Both the position numbers and the translations under genes were made by a program. A model generated the notes under the pieces. The model saw only the letters and a list, made by a program, of their open reading frames with translations, searched no databases and was not told the DNA's origin. Positions 25,608 through 32,841 of a stretch of 46,456 nucleotides of DNA are shown in pieces. This DNA comes from Thermoproteota archaeon (GTDB lineage: Archaea; Thermoproteota; Methanomethylicia; Methanomethylicales; Methanomethylicaceae), in NCBI GenBank assembly GCA_030055575.1, contig JASFYL010000004.1:1-46456 (forward strand), in the 5' to 3' direction. Within the stretch, counting starts at the first letter, position 1. Each line of letters opens with the position of its first letter.

Positions 25608-26672
25608 TCATCTTTCGATTGAATCCACGATCCTCTTGGCTGAATTTCCGTCTCCGAATGGGTTCTGCCAGCCCACATTGGCCCTTAGCATCTCCCGGGC
25701 GCAGTCCAGGATCCTTTGTGGGTCGGTTCCCGAGAGCACATTCGCGCCGACCTCGACCGTTTCGGGGCGCTCGGTGTTGTCCCTCAGGGTGACGCACGGG
25801 ACTCCCAGGATGCAAGCCTCCTCCTGGACGCCGCCCGAGTCGGTGAGGATGAGATCCGCACCCCGCTCTAGCATCAGGAACGTCAGGTAATCCACCGGAT
25901 CCACCATCCTTACCGAGGCACCCACGTGCAGCCCATATGCGGAGATCCTCTTCCTTGCCCTCGGGTGCACCGGATACACTACTTCCCTCCCCAGCTCCTT
26001 GGAGACGAGCTCCAGTCCCCCGAGGATCCTCCTCAGCCTCTCCGGGGAGTCTACATTCTCCTGCCTGTGGACGGTCGCGAGGAAGTAGCGGTCTAGGCAG
26101 AGCTCCGAGCGGATGTCCCTGCCCTCGGTGAGCGAGAGGTTCTGGTTGACGGCATCCACGATGGTGTTTCCGGTCACGCGGATCTTCTCCTGGTCCAAAC
26201 CCTCCCGGAGGAGGTTCTGCATCGATACCTCGGTCGGCGCGAATAGGATGTCCGAGACGTGGTCTGCGACGATCCGGTTGATCTCCTCTGGCATCGACAT
26301 GTCACCGCTCCTGAGGCCTGCCTCGACATGACCGACTTTGATGCGCATCTTTGACGCCGCGAGTGTGCCCGCGAGGACTGTGTTCGTGTCCCCCTCGACC
26401 AGCACGTAATCCGGCTTCTCCTCAGCTAGCACCCGCTCTATCCCCATCAGCATCCTCCCAGTCTCCTCGCCGTGGGTACCGGAACCGACGTTCAGATTGT
26501 GCCTGGGCGGGCGGAGGCGGAGGACCTCGAAGAAGACCCGGTCCATGTTGTGGGAGTAGTGCTGCCCAGTGTGGAGGACGAAGTGATCTATCCCCCGCGC
26601 CTCCAGTTCCCGTACCACAGGCGACATCTTGATTATCTCAGGCCTCGTCCCGAGGACGACCGCGACCTTCAA
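25608..26672 (-). CDS. wecB: UDP-N-acetylglucosamine 2-epimerase (non-hydrolysing type)
   Basis: 'VVLGTRPEIIKMSPVVRELEARGIDHFVLHTGQHYSHNMD', 'VLVEGDTNTVLAGTLAA', 'GHVEAGLRSGDMSMPEEINRIVADHVSD', 'TDSGGVQEEACILGVPCVTLRDNTERPETV'. Confidence 0.97.
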   Translation of the reverse strand: MKVAVVLGTRPEIIKMSPVVRELEARGIDHFVLHTGQHYSHNMDRVFFEVLRLRPPRHNLNVGSGTHGEETGRMLMGIERVLAEEKPDYVLVEGDTNTVLAGTLAASKMRIKVGHVEAGLRSGDMSMPEEINRIVADHVSDILFAPTEVSMQNLLREGLDQEKIRVTGNTIVDAVNQNLSLTEGRDIRSELCLDRYFLATVHRQENVDSPERLRRILGGLELVSKELGREVVYPVHPRARKRISAYGLHVGASVRMVDPVDYLTFLMLERGADLILTDSGGVQEEACILGVPCVTLRDNTERPETVEVGANVLSGTDPQRILDCAREMLRANVGWQNPFGDGNSAKRIVDSIER

Positions 26673-26795: not shown

Positions 26796-28103
26796 CTACC
26801 TGTTCCTGCCCACCGGGAACTTGACCGCTTCGGGGACCTTGTTTAGCTCCCTCAGGATTATCTCGGTGAGATCGCTCATCGACCTGACGAGCTTAGATGG
26901 GGGGCAAGGGTAAAGGACAGTCGCGTTAATCCAGCTGGCCTCCGGGGTGAAGATCACCCGCGGGCCAGCCTCGATCACGCTCCTGAAAGCGACTGGGCAG
27001 TTGCCCGACTCGCACGCGTGGAGCATCCCATCTATGTCTGGGCGGATGTAATCGGTGACGCACTTGACCAGGATCTCTCTGACCACATTGAGGTCGCTCT
27101 CGTACGCAAGGTTGAAGGTCACGGTTCCGACCCTCACGGGCGAGAGGCGGCTCCCGTAGGTAGCTACTATCTCCGAGAGGACGGTCGAGTTAGGCACTGT
27201 GAGGATCCTCCCGGTGACGGACCAGAAGGAGGACTCGTCTCCAACCTCCACTAGGGTAGTCATCAGGTACCCAATGTCCACGACTATGCCACGCACATCA
27301 CCAATCTTCACGCTGTCGCCGATGGTGTAAGCCCTCCTCACGTTTATGTAGACCCATCCGATGAAGTTCGAGATGAGCGGGCTGAGCGAGTAGGATAGGA
27401 TCAGACCGATCACCCCGAAGGAGAAGACGAATATCAGGAGCTCCCTGAAGACGAATGAGATTACCGCGGCGAGCGCGAGGGCGAGGAGTGTAACCTTAGT
27501 CACCCTCCCCACGGAGACCCTCGAGTGGAGATCGTCTATCTTAGAGATCAATAGGACATAGAGAACCTCCGATAATATCAGGGCAACTAGGAATATGACT
27601 GCAGAGAGGATGGACTCGACGACGTATTGCCCGTAAGGGAGCTTTTCGATGTCTTTGAGGAACATCGCGTAGAAGACGAGCAACACGCCCGCTAAGGACA
27701 GGTACACCACCAGCTTGCTCTTGGAAGGCCTACCCTTTGCGACGAGCATCCTCGCCCGCTTCATCCTCATGACAACTGCAATGAAACGGGCGAGCCTTAT
27801 GAACCTCAGCGAACGGAGTGCTGCCCCTATCAGGGGGAGGGACTCGAAGTAGGCGAAAAGATAAGCCGGCACCATTGCCAACAGGTCTATCCAGTGCTGC
27901 TTTACATAGCCGCGCGTTTCTTTTGACGACCTGGCATCCGCCACGAAGTCCGCGGCGAAGACCGAGCATATGGCCAGGTCCAGCGCATATACGACATCGA
28001 TCCAGAATTCCTCTAAGGGGACCATGAAGTCGACCACGAGAAGTGCTATCGAGAGTATCGCGAGCGCAGCCATCAGCAGCTCACGTGCAAACCCGGTGTT
28101 CAC
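26796..28103 (-). CDS. MscS-family channel with N-terminal voltage-sensor-like four-helix domain
   Basis: MscS part: 'FGVIGLILSYSLSPLISNFIGWVYINVRRAYTIGDSVKIGDVRGIVVDIGYLMTTLVEV...LTVPNSTVLSE'. N-terminus: 'YALDLAICSVFAADFVADARSS...YVKQHWIDLLAMVPAY...LRSLRFIRLARFIAVVMRMKR' resembles S2-S3-S4 of ion_trans domains. Confidence 0.85.
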   Translation of the reverse strand: MNTGFARELLMAALAILSIALLVVDFMVPLEEFWIDVVYALDLAICSVFAADFVADARSSKETRGYVKQHWIDLLAMVPAYLFAYFESLPLIGAALRSLRFIRLARFIAVVMRMKRARMLVAKGRPSKSKLVVYLSLAGVLLVFYAMFLKDIEKLPYGQYVVESILSAVIFLVALILSEVLYVLLISKIDDLHSRVSVGRVTKVTLLALALAAVISFVFRELLIFVFSFGVIGLILSYSLSPLISNFIGWVYINVRRAYTIGDSVKIGDVRGIVVDIGYLMTTLVEVGDESSFWSVTGRILTVPNSTVLSEIVATYGSRLSPVRVGTVTFNLAYESDLNVVREILVKCVTDYIRPDIDGMLHACESGNCPVAFRSVIEAGPRVIFTPEASWINATVLYPCPPSKLVRSMSDLTEIILRELNKVPEAVKFPVGRNR

Positions 28104-28585: not shown

Positions 28586-29536
28586 ATGGTGGACGCCATG
28601 GGAGCGGTGGTCGCGGAGTCCCTTTCCAAGAAGTTCGATTCATTCACTGCTGTCGAGAGCGTCAGCTTCGAGATCGGAGAGGGGGAAGTATTCGGCCTGC
28701 TCGGTCCGAACGGAGCAGGAAAGACCACGACGATCAGGATGCTCGCCTGCATAATTTCCCCGACCTCAGGCACGGCTTCAGTCTGCGGGAGCGACATCAG
28801 GACGGAGCCAACAGCGGTCAGAAGGAAGGTCGGGATACAGACCGAGAGCCCAAGCCTGTATGAGAGGCTCACCGCCGTCGAGAACCTCGAGTTCTTCGCC
28901 AAGGCTTATGGGATGACCGACCAGTCGGCTATCCGCGCTAGGATAAAGGAGTTGCTCGAGTTTTTTGACCTTTGGGACAGAAGGGAAGAGAAGGTTGCGG
29001 TCTTCTCAAAGGGGATGAAGCAGAAGCTAGCCATCGCGAGGGCAATAATACACCGCCCCCCAGCCCTCTTCCTGGACGAGCCGACCTCGGGCCTGGATCC
29101 CGAGGCCGCGAAGCTGATACGGGATCTCATAGTCAAGCTGAGCAGGCTTGAGAGGAGAACGATCCTCCTCTCCACACACAGGCTCGAGGACGCGGAGCGT
29201 ATATGCGACAGGGTCGGGATAATCAGCAGGGGCAGGCTGGTGGTCACAGGCACGCCGGAGAACCTTAGGATCAAGGCAGCAGGGGAGGCGAAGGTGGAGG
29301 TGATGGTAAACGGGAGTGCTTCAGGATATGCCGGCGCCATCGAGGGGCTTCCAGGCGTCTCAAACCTCGCAGTCGAGGGGAATAAGATCGTCGTCGGGAC
29401 AAGGGACCCGGTGGGAACGACGCCGGAGGTTGTCAGGAGGCTCGTCGGGGCTGGGGCGCAGATACTAGCTGTCAGACCTTACCTCCCCTCGCTGGAGGAG
29501 ACCTACCTTAGGCTCATGGGGGAGACAGCAGGATGA
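28586..29536 (+). CDS. ABC transporter ATP-binding protein
   Basis: Walker A 'GLLGPNGAGKTTTIRML', signature 'VFSKGMKQKLAIARAI', Walker B 'PALFLDEPTSGLDPEA', H-loop 'LLSTHRLEDAE'. Confidence 0.96.
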   Translation: MVDAMGAVVAESLSKKFDSFTAVESVSFEIGEGEVFGLLGPNGAGKTTTIRMLACIISPTSGTASVCGSDIRTEPTAVRRKVGIQTESPSLYERLTAVENLEFFAKAYGMTDQSAIRARIKELLEFFDLWDRREEKVAVFSKGMKQKLAIARAIIHRPPALFLDEPTSGLDPEAAKLIRDLIVKLSRLERRTILLSTHRLEDAERICDRVGIISRGRLVVTGTPENLRIKAAGEAKVEVMVNGSASGYAGAIEGLPGVSNLAVEGNKIVVGTRDPVGTTPEVVRRLVGAGAQILAVRPYLPSLEETYLRLMGETAG

Positions 29537-30357
29537 AGCTCGAGAACGCGATGGTCGTATTCTGGAAGGACTGGAAGGAGATAAGGAGAAACTACCAGGT
29601 CCTGGCGCCGATCCTCTTCGTCCCGATGATCTTCACCACAGTCCTCCCCCTCATGCTGGTCGTGGTGCCCTCCGCGGTCGGGGTGCCGGGCACCACTATC
29701 CAGTTCCTTGGACCCATGTTCGAAAACCTACCCGAGGAGATCAAGGCGGCTGTCGAAGGGATGGTTGTGGAGCAGTCGATGATATACATCTTCGCGCTCT
29801 ACTTCTTTGCACCGTTCTTCCTCATCATCCCGATTATGGCCTCGAGCGTGATAGCCTCGGACAGCTTTGCAGGGGAGAAGGACCGGAAGACACTCGAGGC
29901 CCTTCTCGCCACCCCGCTGACGGACGGGGAGCTGCTGCTTGGGAAGGTTCTCGTCGCTTTCATACCCTCGATGCTCGTTACTGTCGCCTCGTTCGCATTG
30001 TACTGCGTGGTCGTCGACCTGGCTTATGTGCTACGCTTCGGTGGGGAGGCCCTGTTGCCAAACGCGCTCTGGCTCATGCTGATTTTCGGGGTCACCCCCG
30101 CAGTGGCTCTTGCGGGGATCGGGCTCACCGTGATCATCTCGCTCCGCGTGAAGGGGTATCGGGAGGCCCAGCAGATGAGTGCTGTGCTGATAGTCCCGGT
30201 GCTGGCGCTGGTCTTCGCGCAGGTCGGTGGGGCGATCTTCTTCGGGCAGACGATGATACTACTGATGGCTGCTGCCTTCGCTTTCGTGGACGCCGTGGTC
30301 CTCGCGCTTGGGATAAAGAGGTTCCGTAGGGAGGACCTGCTGACCAAGTGCTGCTGA
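29533..30357 (+). CDS. ABC-2 type permease
   Basis: Overlaps the ATPase stop; 'VIASDSFAGEKDRKTLEALLATPLTDGELLLGKVLVAF' is characteristic of ABC-2 permeases; about 6 TM helices. Confidence 0.93.
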   Translation: MKLENAMVVFWKDWKEIRRNYQVLAPILFVPMIFTTVLPLMLVVVPSAVGVPGTTIQFLGPMFENLPEEIKAAVEGMVVEQSMIYIFALYFFAPFFLIIPIMASSVIASDSFAGEKDRKTLEALLATPLTDGELLLGKVLVAFIPSMLVTVASFALYCVVVDLAYVLRFGGEALLPNALWLMLIFGVTPAVALAGIGLTVIISLRVKGYREAQQMSAVLIVPVLALVFAQVGGAIFFGQTMILLMAAAFAFVDAVVLALGIKRFRREDLLTKCC

Positions 30358-30426: not shown

Positions 30427-32841
30427 ATGGATTTGCCAGCCAGGATTGTTTTTGCATCTTCGATAGTGCTCGTGCTTCTCTCGATCGCATCTTCCCAGGC
30501 GGTATCTACTGAAGTGAACATCTGGTTGGACACGGACACCTCGCTCTACTCGCTCGGGGAGCCAGTCCACATAGTGATCTCAGGGCCTCCTTGTCAGGTC
30601 TCGGTCTCGGTAACCGGGCCCTCTGGGGAGGAGGTCTTCAGGGACGACGCGCTCGAGATCGGCACCTCGGGGAGCGTGAACGTTACTCTCCAGACTGCAG
30701 GGTTCGCGCTAGGCTCCTACAACATCACTGTAAACGGATCGGCAGGGATTTGCAGCCGTTGGTTCAGGCTGGTGGAACCTTTCATATCCGTCTCTTGCTC
30801 AGCAGCCTCACCCGATGGCGAACCCCTCTCCAGACCCGCGGAGGTCTACTACTACTTCAACGGGACTGCGATAACCCTCTTCGTCAATGTCTCGGCACCA
30901 AACAACCACCTCGCGGCATCGGTCGATCTTGGGTGGCTCGGGGTGGGGGCGACCGGGTTCTCCCCGGCTGATGGGGGCACATGGGCGAGCGGAACGGCAG
31001 CAGACGGCTCGGCGTGGTACGTGTTCCTCGTGAACTGCACCGTACCCAGGGAGCTCTGCTCTCAGGGTCTCTTCGAGACGAGGGTTGAAGCTGCCACAGC
31101 GGCGGGGGCCTCGGGCACTGCAGTCTTTCTGGCGGCTCTAAACTTCCAGCCGACCGAATTGGACAGCAGGCTCGGCGGATCTACCACGGACTGGAAGGGG
31201 ATAACGGACTTCACCAACGTTACTGGGCTCACGTTCGAGTTCTTTAACGGCAGCGCCTCTGTCGCCAAGTTGACCTACACGGGTGTGGTCAACCTCTGCG
31301 ACCAAGTCACTGCGCGGTCGCTGCTTAGCCTGAGCCGGCACATAGACGCGGGTCGGGGCAGGATCTGGGTGAACGCCTCCGCGCTGCCGGCGTTAGACTC
31401 CCCCGCGGAGGTCAGGATGTACGGGCTGTCATTCCCGAGGCAGCCAGGGGTACTCTTCGATGGGGAACCTGTCTTAAGGTCAGGTCAGACCTCGGGAGGG
31501 CCCGTGCGCTCATTATCATGGGACTCCGACAATGGGCGCCTAATTCTCGAGGTGGGCCGGATTGGGGAGCTGGTGGCCGACGGGGATCCTCCCTACGTCG
31601 CGTACATGGAGCCCGGGGACGGGAACTACACGCGGAGTCCTACGCCCTCATTTAGGATCCTCCTCTCGGACGCCGCCTCAGGGGTCGATCCAACCACCGT
31701 AGCGCTCCATGTCGACGGCAAGCAGCTCAGCCCCGCTGCCGCCTCAGAGCGGGGTGGCAGCCTCTGGGTCAACGTAACTACACCGCCGCTCGAGGAGGGC
31801 TGGCACCACTTCCTGCTGACTGCGAGCGACATGCTCGGGAACTTGGGGGTCGCGACCTTTGCGATAGCAGTGGACACGACACCTCCAGAGGTAGTCTCCT
31901 TCCTGCCTGAGGGCGGATCGTACACCGGAGATCCGATGCAGAGGCTTGCTGTGAGGTTTGCGGACGCGCTCTCCGGAACCTCTCGCGCAATCCTATTCAT
32001 CAACTCATCTAGAGTTGCGGAGGTGACAGGCGACTTGATCGAGTACACTCCCGCGACCGACCTGGCGGAGGGCCCATGCAACGCCACCGTCCTGGTCTCT
32101 GACGGGGTCGGGAACGAGCGGACGTTCAGCTGGTCATTCATCGTGGACCGAACTCCTCCCAGGATAGTCTACTTCCACCCAGAAGACGCTATGATAGTCC
32201 CGTACAACGACTCGGTCTACGCCAGCTTCGAGGACGACCTGGGGACAGACCTCAGCAGGATCAGCCTCAAGATAGACGGGGTCGAGGTCGCGGGCTTCAT
32301 CAATCTGACCGACAGGACGCTCCTCTACTTCCCAGCTCCACCGCTATCCAGGGGCGTGCACGAAGCCACGATCACTGTCTACGATCTAGCAGGCAACAAC
32401 GCCACAAAGAGCTTTCGCTTTAGGGTCGACGACATACCCCCCTTAGTGACTGATAGGTCTCCTAAGCACGGGGAAGTGCTCACGAGCAGAACCGTGACAA
32501 TCAGCGCCACGCTCTTCGACAACATAGAGGTTAAGCCAGACCTGGTAAAGGTCGTTGTAGACGGGGTCGATAGGACCTTCCAGTCTTCGGTTACGAAGAC
32601 CAAGGTGACCTGCCAGCTCCCCCTCGACTACGGGGAGCATACGGTCGAGATCGTCCTCTTCGACACCTCCTACAACAGCAACATAGTATCCTGGAGCTTC
32701 AAGGTCATGGAGCCCCAGGCGGTTCCCCATGAGCTCGTCAGGGATATCATAATAATGTCTGCGCTCGTGGTGGGCATAGTCATTGCGCTCGTGCTGGTCT
32801 TCGTGCTGGGCAGCCGGAGGGGGAGGGAGAAGAAGTATTAA
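30427..32841 (+). CDS. Secreted/anchored Ig-like repeat protein with N-terminal signal and C-terminal TM anchor
   Basis: Hydrophobic N-terminus, repeated 'DTTPPEVV.F.P..G', 'DRTPPRIVYFHPEDA', 'DDIPPLVTDRSPKHG' blocks, C-terminal 'ALVVGIVIALVLVFVLGSRRGREKKY'. Confidence 0.85.
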   Translation: MDLPARIVFASSIVLVLLSIASSQAVSTEVNIWLDTDTSLYSLGEPVHIVISGPPCQVSVSVTGPSGEEVFRDDALEIGTSGSVNVTLQTAGFALGSYNITVNGSAGICSRWFRLVEPFISVSCSAASPDGEPLSRPAEVYYYFNGTAITLFVNVSAPNNHLAASVDLGWLGVGATGFSPADGGTWASGTAADGSAWYVFLVNCTVPRELCSQGLFETRVEAATAAGASGTAVFLAALNFQPTELDSRLGGSTTDWKGITDFTNVTGLTFEFFNGSASVAKLTYTGVVNLCDQVTARSLLSLSRHIDAGRGRIWVNASALPALDSPAEVRMYGLSFPRQPGVLFDGEPVLRSGQTSGGPVRSLSWDSDNGRLILEVGRIGELVADGDPPYVAYMEPGDGNYTRSPTPSFRILLSDAASGVDPTTVALHVDGKQLSPAAASERGGSLWVNVTTPPLEEGWHHFLLTASDMLGNLGVATFAIAVDTTPPEVVSFLPEGGSYTGDPMQRLAVRFADALSGTSRAILFINSSRVAEVTGDLIEYTPATDLAEGPCNATVLVSDGVGNERTFSWSFIVDRTPPRIVYFHPEDAMIVPYNDSVYASFEDDLGTDLSRISLKIDGVEVAGFINLTDRTLLYFPAPPLSRGVHEATITVYDLAGNNATKSFRFRVDDIPPLVTDRSPKHGEVLTSRTVTISATLFDNIEVKPDLVKVVVDGVDRTFQSSVTKTKVTCQLPLDYGEHTVEIVLFDTSYNSNIVSWSFKVMEPQAVPHELVRDIIIMSALVVGIVIALVLVFVLGSRRGREKKY
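31590..32720 (+). repeat. About four tandem Ig-like repeat units (about 90 aa) within the secreted protein
   Basis: Recurring (D)xxPPxVxxxxPxxG starts at protein positions near DNA 31585, 31875, 32145 and 32425. Confidence 0.6.

Follow-up and report, generated by a model that had tools for sequence, protein, structure and literature searches.

The minus-strand open reading frame at 26796-28103 of the window, the 46,456-nucleotide stretch of DNA that was analyzed, encodes a single 435-residue protein of a methane-producing archaeon in which, by homology, a KvAP-type S1-S4 voltage-sensor domain (VSD) is joined through the cytoplasmic end of S4 to a complete four-transmembrane (4-TM) channel of the MscS family. 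Each module is well known, and their combination is new; it is restricted to one lineage, and its sensing residues are kept by selection. We regard it as moderately probable that the protein is an MscS heptamer in which seven voltage sensors bias the gating by tension; the homology of both halves is observed, and voltage gating is what we infer. The features of the protein and its neighboring genes are mapped in Table 1.

Table 1 Coordinates in the window of the fusion channel, its segments and the adjoining genes.
Feature	Position	Strand	Basis
VSD-MscS fusion channel gene	26796..28103	-	435 aa, GTG start; open reading frame, both Pfam domains and homologues
VSD S1-S4, residues 1-118	27750..28103	-	phmmer with KvAP; hhalign with archaeal Kv VSDs; Foldseek 1ors/2kyh
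S1, residues ~9-27	28023..28079	-	Helix 3-27 in model; alignment to KvAP
S2, residues ~34-57, with D42, F49 (aromatic plug) and D52 (charge-transfer centre)	27933..28004	-	Residue conservation
S3, residues ~70-87, with D73 (third charge-transfer acid)	27843..27896	-	Invariant in 10; archaeal Kv alignment
S4, residues ~96-118, R97-x2-R100-x2-R103-x2-R106, then R113/K115/R116	27750..27818	-	Invariance; KvAP alignment
S4-TM0 linker (fusion junction), residues 119-129, predicted cytoplasmic	27717..27749	-	0 of 11 columns invariant
TM0 (extra helix), residues ~130-150	27654..27716	-	Helix 127-153 in model; matched by first TM of 4-TM MscS
MscS TM1 and TM2 (putative tension-sensing paddle), residues ~160-222	27438..27626	-	phmmer with E. 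coli MscS from 157; hhalign 158-428
MscS TM3 pore helix, residues ~223-256	27336..27437	-	Alignment by N117 = N246
MscS β-domain, residues 257-316	27156..27335	-	PF00924 at residues 243-313
C-terminal α/β domain (cytoplasmic cage), residues 317-435	26799..27155	-	hhalign with 4-TM MscS to 428
UDP-GlcNAc 2-epimerase-like gene (downstream neighbor, outside channel)	25608..26672	-	73-82% identical neighbor in L032, L033, L035 and L037
ABC transporter pair (divergent neighbor, outside channel)	28586..30357	+	Adjoins the fusion gene also in L032, L033 and L037

Residues 1-118 are assigned to a KvAP-type S1-S4 VSD by several sequence comparisons. The Pfam domain Ion_trans (PF00520) scores 27.8 bits on the window protein (cut-off 25) and 30.8 bits on L010, and is found at E ≤ 0.001 in nine of the ten family members, some of them under the curated cut-off. 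Using phmmer against the sequences of solved structures, KvAP, the voltage-gated K+ channel of Aeropyrum pernix, was matched over residues 9-185 with an E-value of 2.4e-9 and the isolated KvAP VSD over residues 9-122, and hhalign aligned the ten-member family with archaeal Kv channels over residues 4-145 (E 3e-25). Among the residues invariant in all ten homologues are D42, F49, D73, R97, R100, R103 and R106, the four arginines placing a basic residue at every third position of S4 in each sequence; D52, which with F49 and D73 comprises the charge-transfer centre inward of D42, is kept in nine homologues and changed in G006. We take the F49-x-x-D52 spacing together with D73 in S3 to be equivalent to the charge-transfer centre of Shaker (F290-x-x-E293/D316). 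R100, R103 and R106 align with S4 arginines of KvAP by phmmer, and D73 with the acidic residue (Glu) in S3 of archaeal Kv channels; the codons for the four arginines span 27786-27815, and those for residues 97-116 span 27756-27815. The VSD as a whole is variable, with a mean identity of 59% and 37 of 118 columns invariant across the ten sequences, which diverge down to 50-54% identity, and the hypergeometric probability that seven of the eight canonical sites would be invariant by chance is about 0.001. As far as can be judged from sequence, the domain has been kept as a canonical sensor, with no drift toward neutral helices. The protein has no Kv pore: no filter motif of the P-loop/TVGYG-type filter/S6 region was found in the translation of the window protein, whose post-S4 region aligns to MscS, and TVGYGD is present in all archaeal Kv relatives compared.

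The remainder of the protein, residues about 119-435, is identified by the same kinds of comparison as a 4-TM MscS channel. MS_channel_2nd (PF00924) scores 42 bits on the window protein (cut-off 20.2) and is present in all ten members; E. coli MscS is matched by phmmer over residues 157-350 (E 1e-7), and 4-TM MscS proteins are matched by hhalign over residues 158-428 (E 1e-32). The TM3 pore helix, the MS_channel β-domain and the C-terminal α/β domain that define the MscS superfamily are all found. Within TM3, L234, Y238 and P242 are invariant in the ten sequences; when the two proteins are aligned by N117 = N246, L234 and Y238 presumably correspond to the E. coli MscS gate positions L105 and L109, and P242 to the kink at G113. 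The β-domain is the best conserved part of the protein (34 of 58 columns invariant) and the C-terminal MscS part is also well conserved, as would be expected if the pore is the working end. The first-pass annotation had placed a VSD-like domain and an MscS domain on one open reading frame, and both Pfam domains do exceed their cut-offs in 26796-28103, so that the pairing lies far outside chance; its reading of the first ~118 residues as VSD-like agrees with the sequence-family, profile-profile and fold comparisons and with the gating residues, the motifs in S2, S3 and S4 and the arginines at 97, 100, 103 and 106 lie where it had put them, and its MscS pore and β-domain in the C-terminal half are borne out by Pfam, by hhalign and by MscS as the top fold match. 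The extra helix TM0, described below, has no place in that annotation.

Those fold matches were obtained with AlphaFold monomers built on a shallow alignment of eight sequences, whose pLDDT was low (57.9 for the full length and 61.1 for the VSD with TM0). When the VSD model (pLDDT 61) was searched by Foldseek, the top matches were the KvAP VSD structures 1ors and 2kyh, with a probability of 1.00, and the VSD of Ci-VSP was among the matches. The full model (pLDDT 58) retrieved MscS with an E-value of 2e-8 and a probability of 1.00, YnaI and MscK, and also the KvAP VSD, with a TM-score of 0.70 by target length and an rmsd of 3.8. The matches to the KvAP and Ci-VSP VSDs, at target-length TM-scores of 0.63-0.70, thus derive from models of pLDDT only 58-61, and we read the modeled folds as support for the assignment of a VSD and an MscS channel, not as proof of it; being monomers, they do not show how the VSD packs against the pore. 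The structure prediction that had been suggested as a check on the voltage sensor accordingly returned KvAP and Ci-VSP sensors for that region, from a low-confidence model (pLDDT 61).

The topology that would allow the two modules to be joined can be read from the charges of the loops. Residues 113-129 are strongly basic, with seven Lys or Arg and zero Asp or Glu, and the loop charges overall fit a positive-inside arrangement of eight transmembrane helices with both termini inside: the S2-S3, S4-TM0 and TM1-TM2 loops are basic, and the S1-S2, S3-S4 and remaining outer loops are not. The predicted order is therefore an S4 that ends inside, then TM0, then MscS TM1-TM3; the cytoplasmic end of S4 can join TM1, an outside-to-inside helix, because the extra helix intervenes. 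A transmembrane helix at the TM0 position also occurs in Sinorhizobium WP_275600238 and in the archaeal proteins L070-L073, and since such a helix exists in 4-TM MscS proteins, the simplest history suggested by the sequences is the addition of a VSD in front of an entire 4-TM MscS, at its N-terminus. TM0 was also considered as a remnant of Kv S5 and this was set aside as less likely: the phmmer alignment with KvAP reaches S5, but the Kv profile comparison ends at residue 145. An MscS origin of TM0 appears more likely, given where the Kv profile match stops and the equivalent place of the helix in 4-TM MscS proteins. Conservation within the protein is lowest in the S4-TM0 linker (48% identity) and in TM0 (41%), which argues against a precise coupling of the S4-S5-linker type.

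In the working that we favor, the protein would assemble as an MscS-type heptamer with seven VSDs around one pore. As in MscS, the TM1-TM3 paddle would transmit membrane tension to open the pore, while the membrane potential would set the position of S4, which would push on TM0 and TM1. A shift of S4 could then, with either sign of the voltage effect, alter the tension threshold or the way in which the pore closes and inactivates. The likeliest role of such a channel would be that of a release valve for osmolytes that responds to the energized state of the cell. The stronger proposal, of a new class of channel in which tension and seven canonical voltage sensors together gate a heptameric MscS pore, is one we put forward tentatively, as falling a little short of probable.

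The account that competes best with voltage-biased gating, although we consider it unlikely, is that the VSD is a structural or lipid-contacting extension of the heptamer rim, which would tune the sensitivity to tension without any voltage-driven movement. It draws its weight from the poor conservation of the junction (linker 119-129) and TM0, and extra N-terminal helices are frequent in MscS relatives such as YnaI and MscK; a rim extension, however, has no need of an invariant D42, F49 and D73 and four arginines at i+3 spacing amid an otherwise variable VSD. Considerably less probable is that the VSD itself conducts, by an Hv1-like proton or cation path, or senses voltage for a target other than the pore, with the MscS part as a module apart from it, for output or assembly. 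There are VSDs that lack a K+ pore, as a proton channel (Hv1) and as the sensor of an enzyme (Ci-VSP) (PMC10657467, PMC3440755), and the Ci-VSP domain is, as noted, one of the fold matches, but the nearest sequence relatives are the VSDs of Kv channels, not Hv1, and the intact pore half contains the most conserved part of the protein.

That there is a gene to explain at all is clear from its occurrence across genomes. The frame runs for 435 codons without a stop, its GTG start lying immediately after a stop codon, and intact homologues were found in nine genomes (that of the window included), all 435-440 residues long and stop-free, with the junction at an identical position; in a tenth genome, G002, the homologue is broken by a stretch of unknown bases. 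The sources are Candidatus Methanosuratincola and close genera (Methanomethylicia/Verstraetearchaeota, now Methanosuratincolia; Thermoproteota), and the closest relatives share 66-72% identity and the farthest 54%. Two intact homologues lie on large contigs, of 410 kb and 692 kb. The locus is syntenic in four other Methanosuratincola genomes, with the UDP-GlcNAc 2-epimerase gene on one side and, in three of them, the divergent ABC transporter on the other; dN/dS values are 0.06-0.23 for the VSD and 0.04-0.20 for the remainder of the protein. Because of the independent intact homologues, the synteny and the low dN/dS, an assembly join is excluded as the source of the fusion, which the sequences indicate to be an old gene under purifying selection in one archaeal family. 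It is barely conceivable that the fusion is an artefact of assembly or annotation, or a chance fusion in decay, for although the source genome is fragmented (97 contigs, 88% complete) and decayed remnants occur in G011 and G015, the protein is full length in nine genomes, on contigs of more than 400 kb in two, at a conserved locus and with dN/dS of 0.04-0.23 across both halves.

A search of 398 Thermoproteota genomes with the full-length profile confined intact two-domain matches to the family of the window, from which 22 genomes were sampled; none was found in the other 18 genomes of the class. Outside the family each half finds its matches in a protein of its own, in most cases a Kv channel of 265-330 residues or an MscS protein of ~180-460 residues. 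The VSD profile alone, run on 397 genomes, retrieved three main architectures, namely Kv channels, the VSD-MscS fusion and proteins of ~500 residues. In a plasmid collection no VSD-MscS protein was found, only MscS halves, and there were no VSD matches; a scan of contigs across genomes yielded matches from the same archaeal group only. The suspicion that the architecture is unusual is thus upheld by the taxonomic survey, which in the 398-genome Thermoproteota sample finds it in one family. Within that family the gene is absent, or only a decayed piece is left, in several genomes, and so it is not essential. G011 retains only a decayed N-terminal VSD piece (L020:216-410, minus strand) and G015 a C-terminal remnant with two stops (C42:10500-10619), indicating that the fusion gene has been lost or pseudogenized more than once.

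Several further observations concern the surroundings and relatives of the gene. Adjoining the ABC transporter pair, at 30427-32841 (plus strand), is the gene for a predicted surface protein of 804 residues, 54% conserved in L032 and L033; its start is signal-like, it contains repeated segments of Ig-like type, and its C-terminus bears a transmembrane anchor. The genome of the window also carries a second full-length VSD-MscS copy (L031:1555-2862, plus strand), 68% identical to that of the window, on contig C61, which has a GC fraction of 0.47, as against 0.58 for the window, and is 88% identical to, and partly collinear with, G015, which belongs to another genus; this points either to a recent transfer or to a foreign contig in the bin. 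A second fusion of a VSD with a non-Kv transporter in Thermoproteota is VSD-CorA, found as proteins of 492-530 residues in G196 and G014 (L091:410-1888 and L092:68-1660, both minus strand) that score 35.9 and 41.6 bits for Ion_trans and 106 and 110 bits for CorA; G014 belongs to the window's own family, and similar ~500-residue VSD matches occur in G320 and G327. For the MscS half, the top non-archaeal relative is a plasmid-borne 4-TM MscS of Sinorhizobium (L080:2258-3337, plus strand; 34% identity, E 1e-26), and the Thermoproteota MscS proteins that were found are 25-30% identical to the half, which may lie closer to a bacterial lineage than to them.

VSDs occur as parts of tetrameric cation channels and of phosphatases, and also act as proton channels. 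KvAP is like the fusion protein in the fold and sequence of S1-S4, in the i+3 arginines of S4 and in the acidic residues of S2 and S3; the fusion protein differs in having no P-loop, selectivity filter or S6, and in an MscS pore as its output, presumably with seven- rather than four-fold symmetry. The 4-TM MscS proteins compared (Sinorhizobium WP_275600238, of 359 residues and 31-35% identical over residues 114-430, and the archaeal L070-L073) share TM0-TM3, the β-domain and the C-terminal α/β domain together with its insert, whereas their N-terminus is a short hydrophilic tail and none has a VSD. E. coli MscS is homologous in TM1-TM3 and the β-domain, but has three transmembrane helices, no voltage sensor, and L105, L109 and G113 at the places of L234, Y238 and P242. 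Ci-VSP and Hv1 likewise use a VSD outside tetrameric K, Na or Ca channels, and do so without an MscS pore. A precedent for a second sensor on an MscS pore is offered by the bCNG channels, which have a cyclic-nucleotide-binding domain and are linked to the MscS superfamily in work cited in PMC6833973; their added sensor is cytoplasmic and ligand-binding, whereas that of the fusion protein would be a membrane voltage sensor. AtHv1 must be stretched before voltage opens it (PMC10657467), so that one VSD senses both stimuli, in contrast to the two separate modules that would do so here. NaChBac, which is stretch sensitive (PMC10038658), and PIEZO, which is modulated by voltage (PMC5854696), are each a single channel modulated by voltage and tension, as we propose for the fusion protein; NaChBac, however, has a Na+ pore and is stretch sensitive secondarily, and PIEZO lacks a canonical VSD.

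The full-text literature searched, from which most subscription papers are absent, yielded no account of a VSD-MscS protein. Kumanovics et al. (2002), a possible earlier report, is cited by later papers for an NxxD motif common to MscL and voltage sensors and for voltage-sensing phosphatases, not for a VSD-MscS fusion. If a heptamer does read both voltage and tension, it would to our knowledge be the first true S1-S4 sensor known to control a non-tetrameric osmotic release valve, and we likewise know of no other prokaryotic channel built to couple membrane energization to osmotic release. An MscS partner would show that a VSD can be linked to a pore that is unrelated and differs in symmetry, and would provide a natural construct with which to ask how S4 movement leads to pore opening without the S4-S5 and S6 machinery of Kv channels. 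The genus has a cultured member, Methanosuratincola petrocarbonis LWZ-6 (PMC12244365), and the fusion gene is present in M. petrocarbonis genome V4 (locus L045), a genome other than that of LWZ-6. With a cultured species in the genus, the channel is testable, and its expression and physiology are open to study; it thereby becomes possible to ask of a living methane producer whether an archaeal osmotic safety valve is adjusted to the membrane potential.
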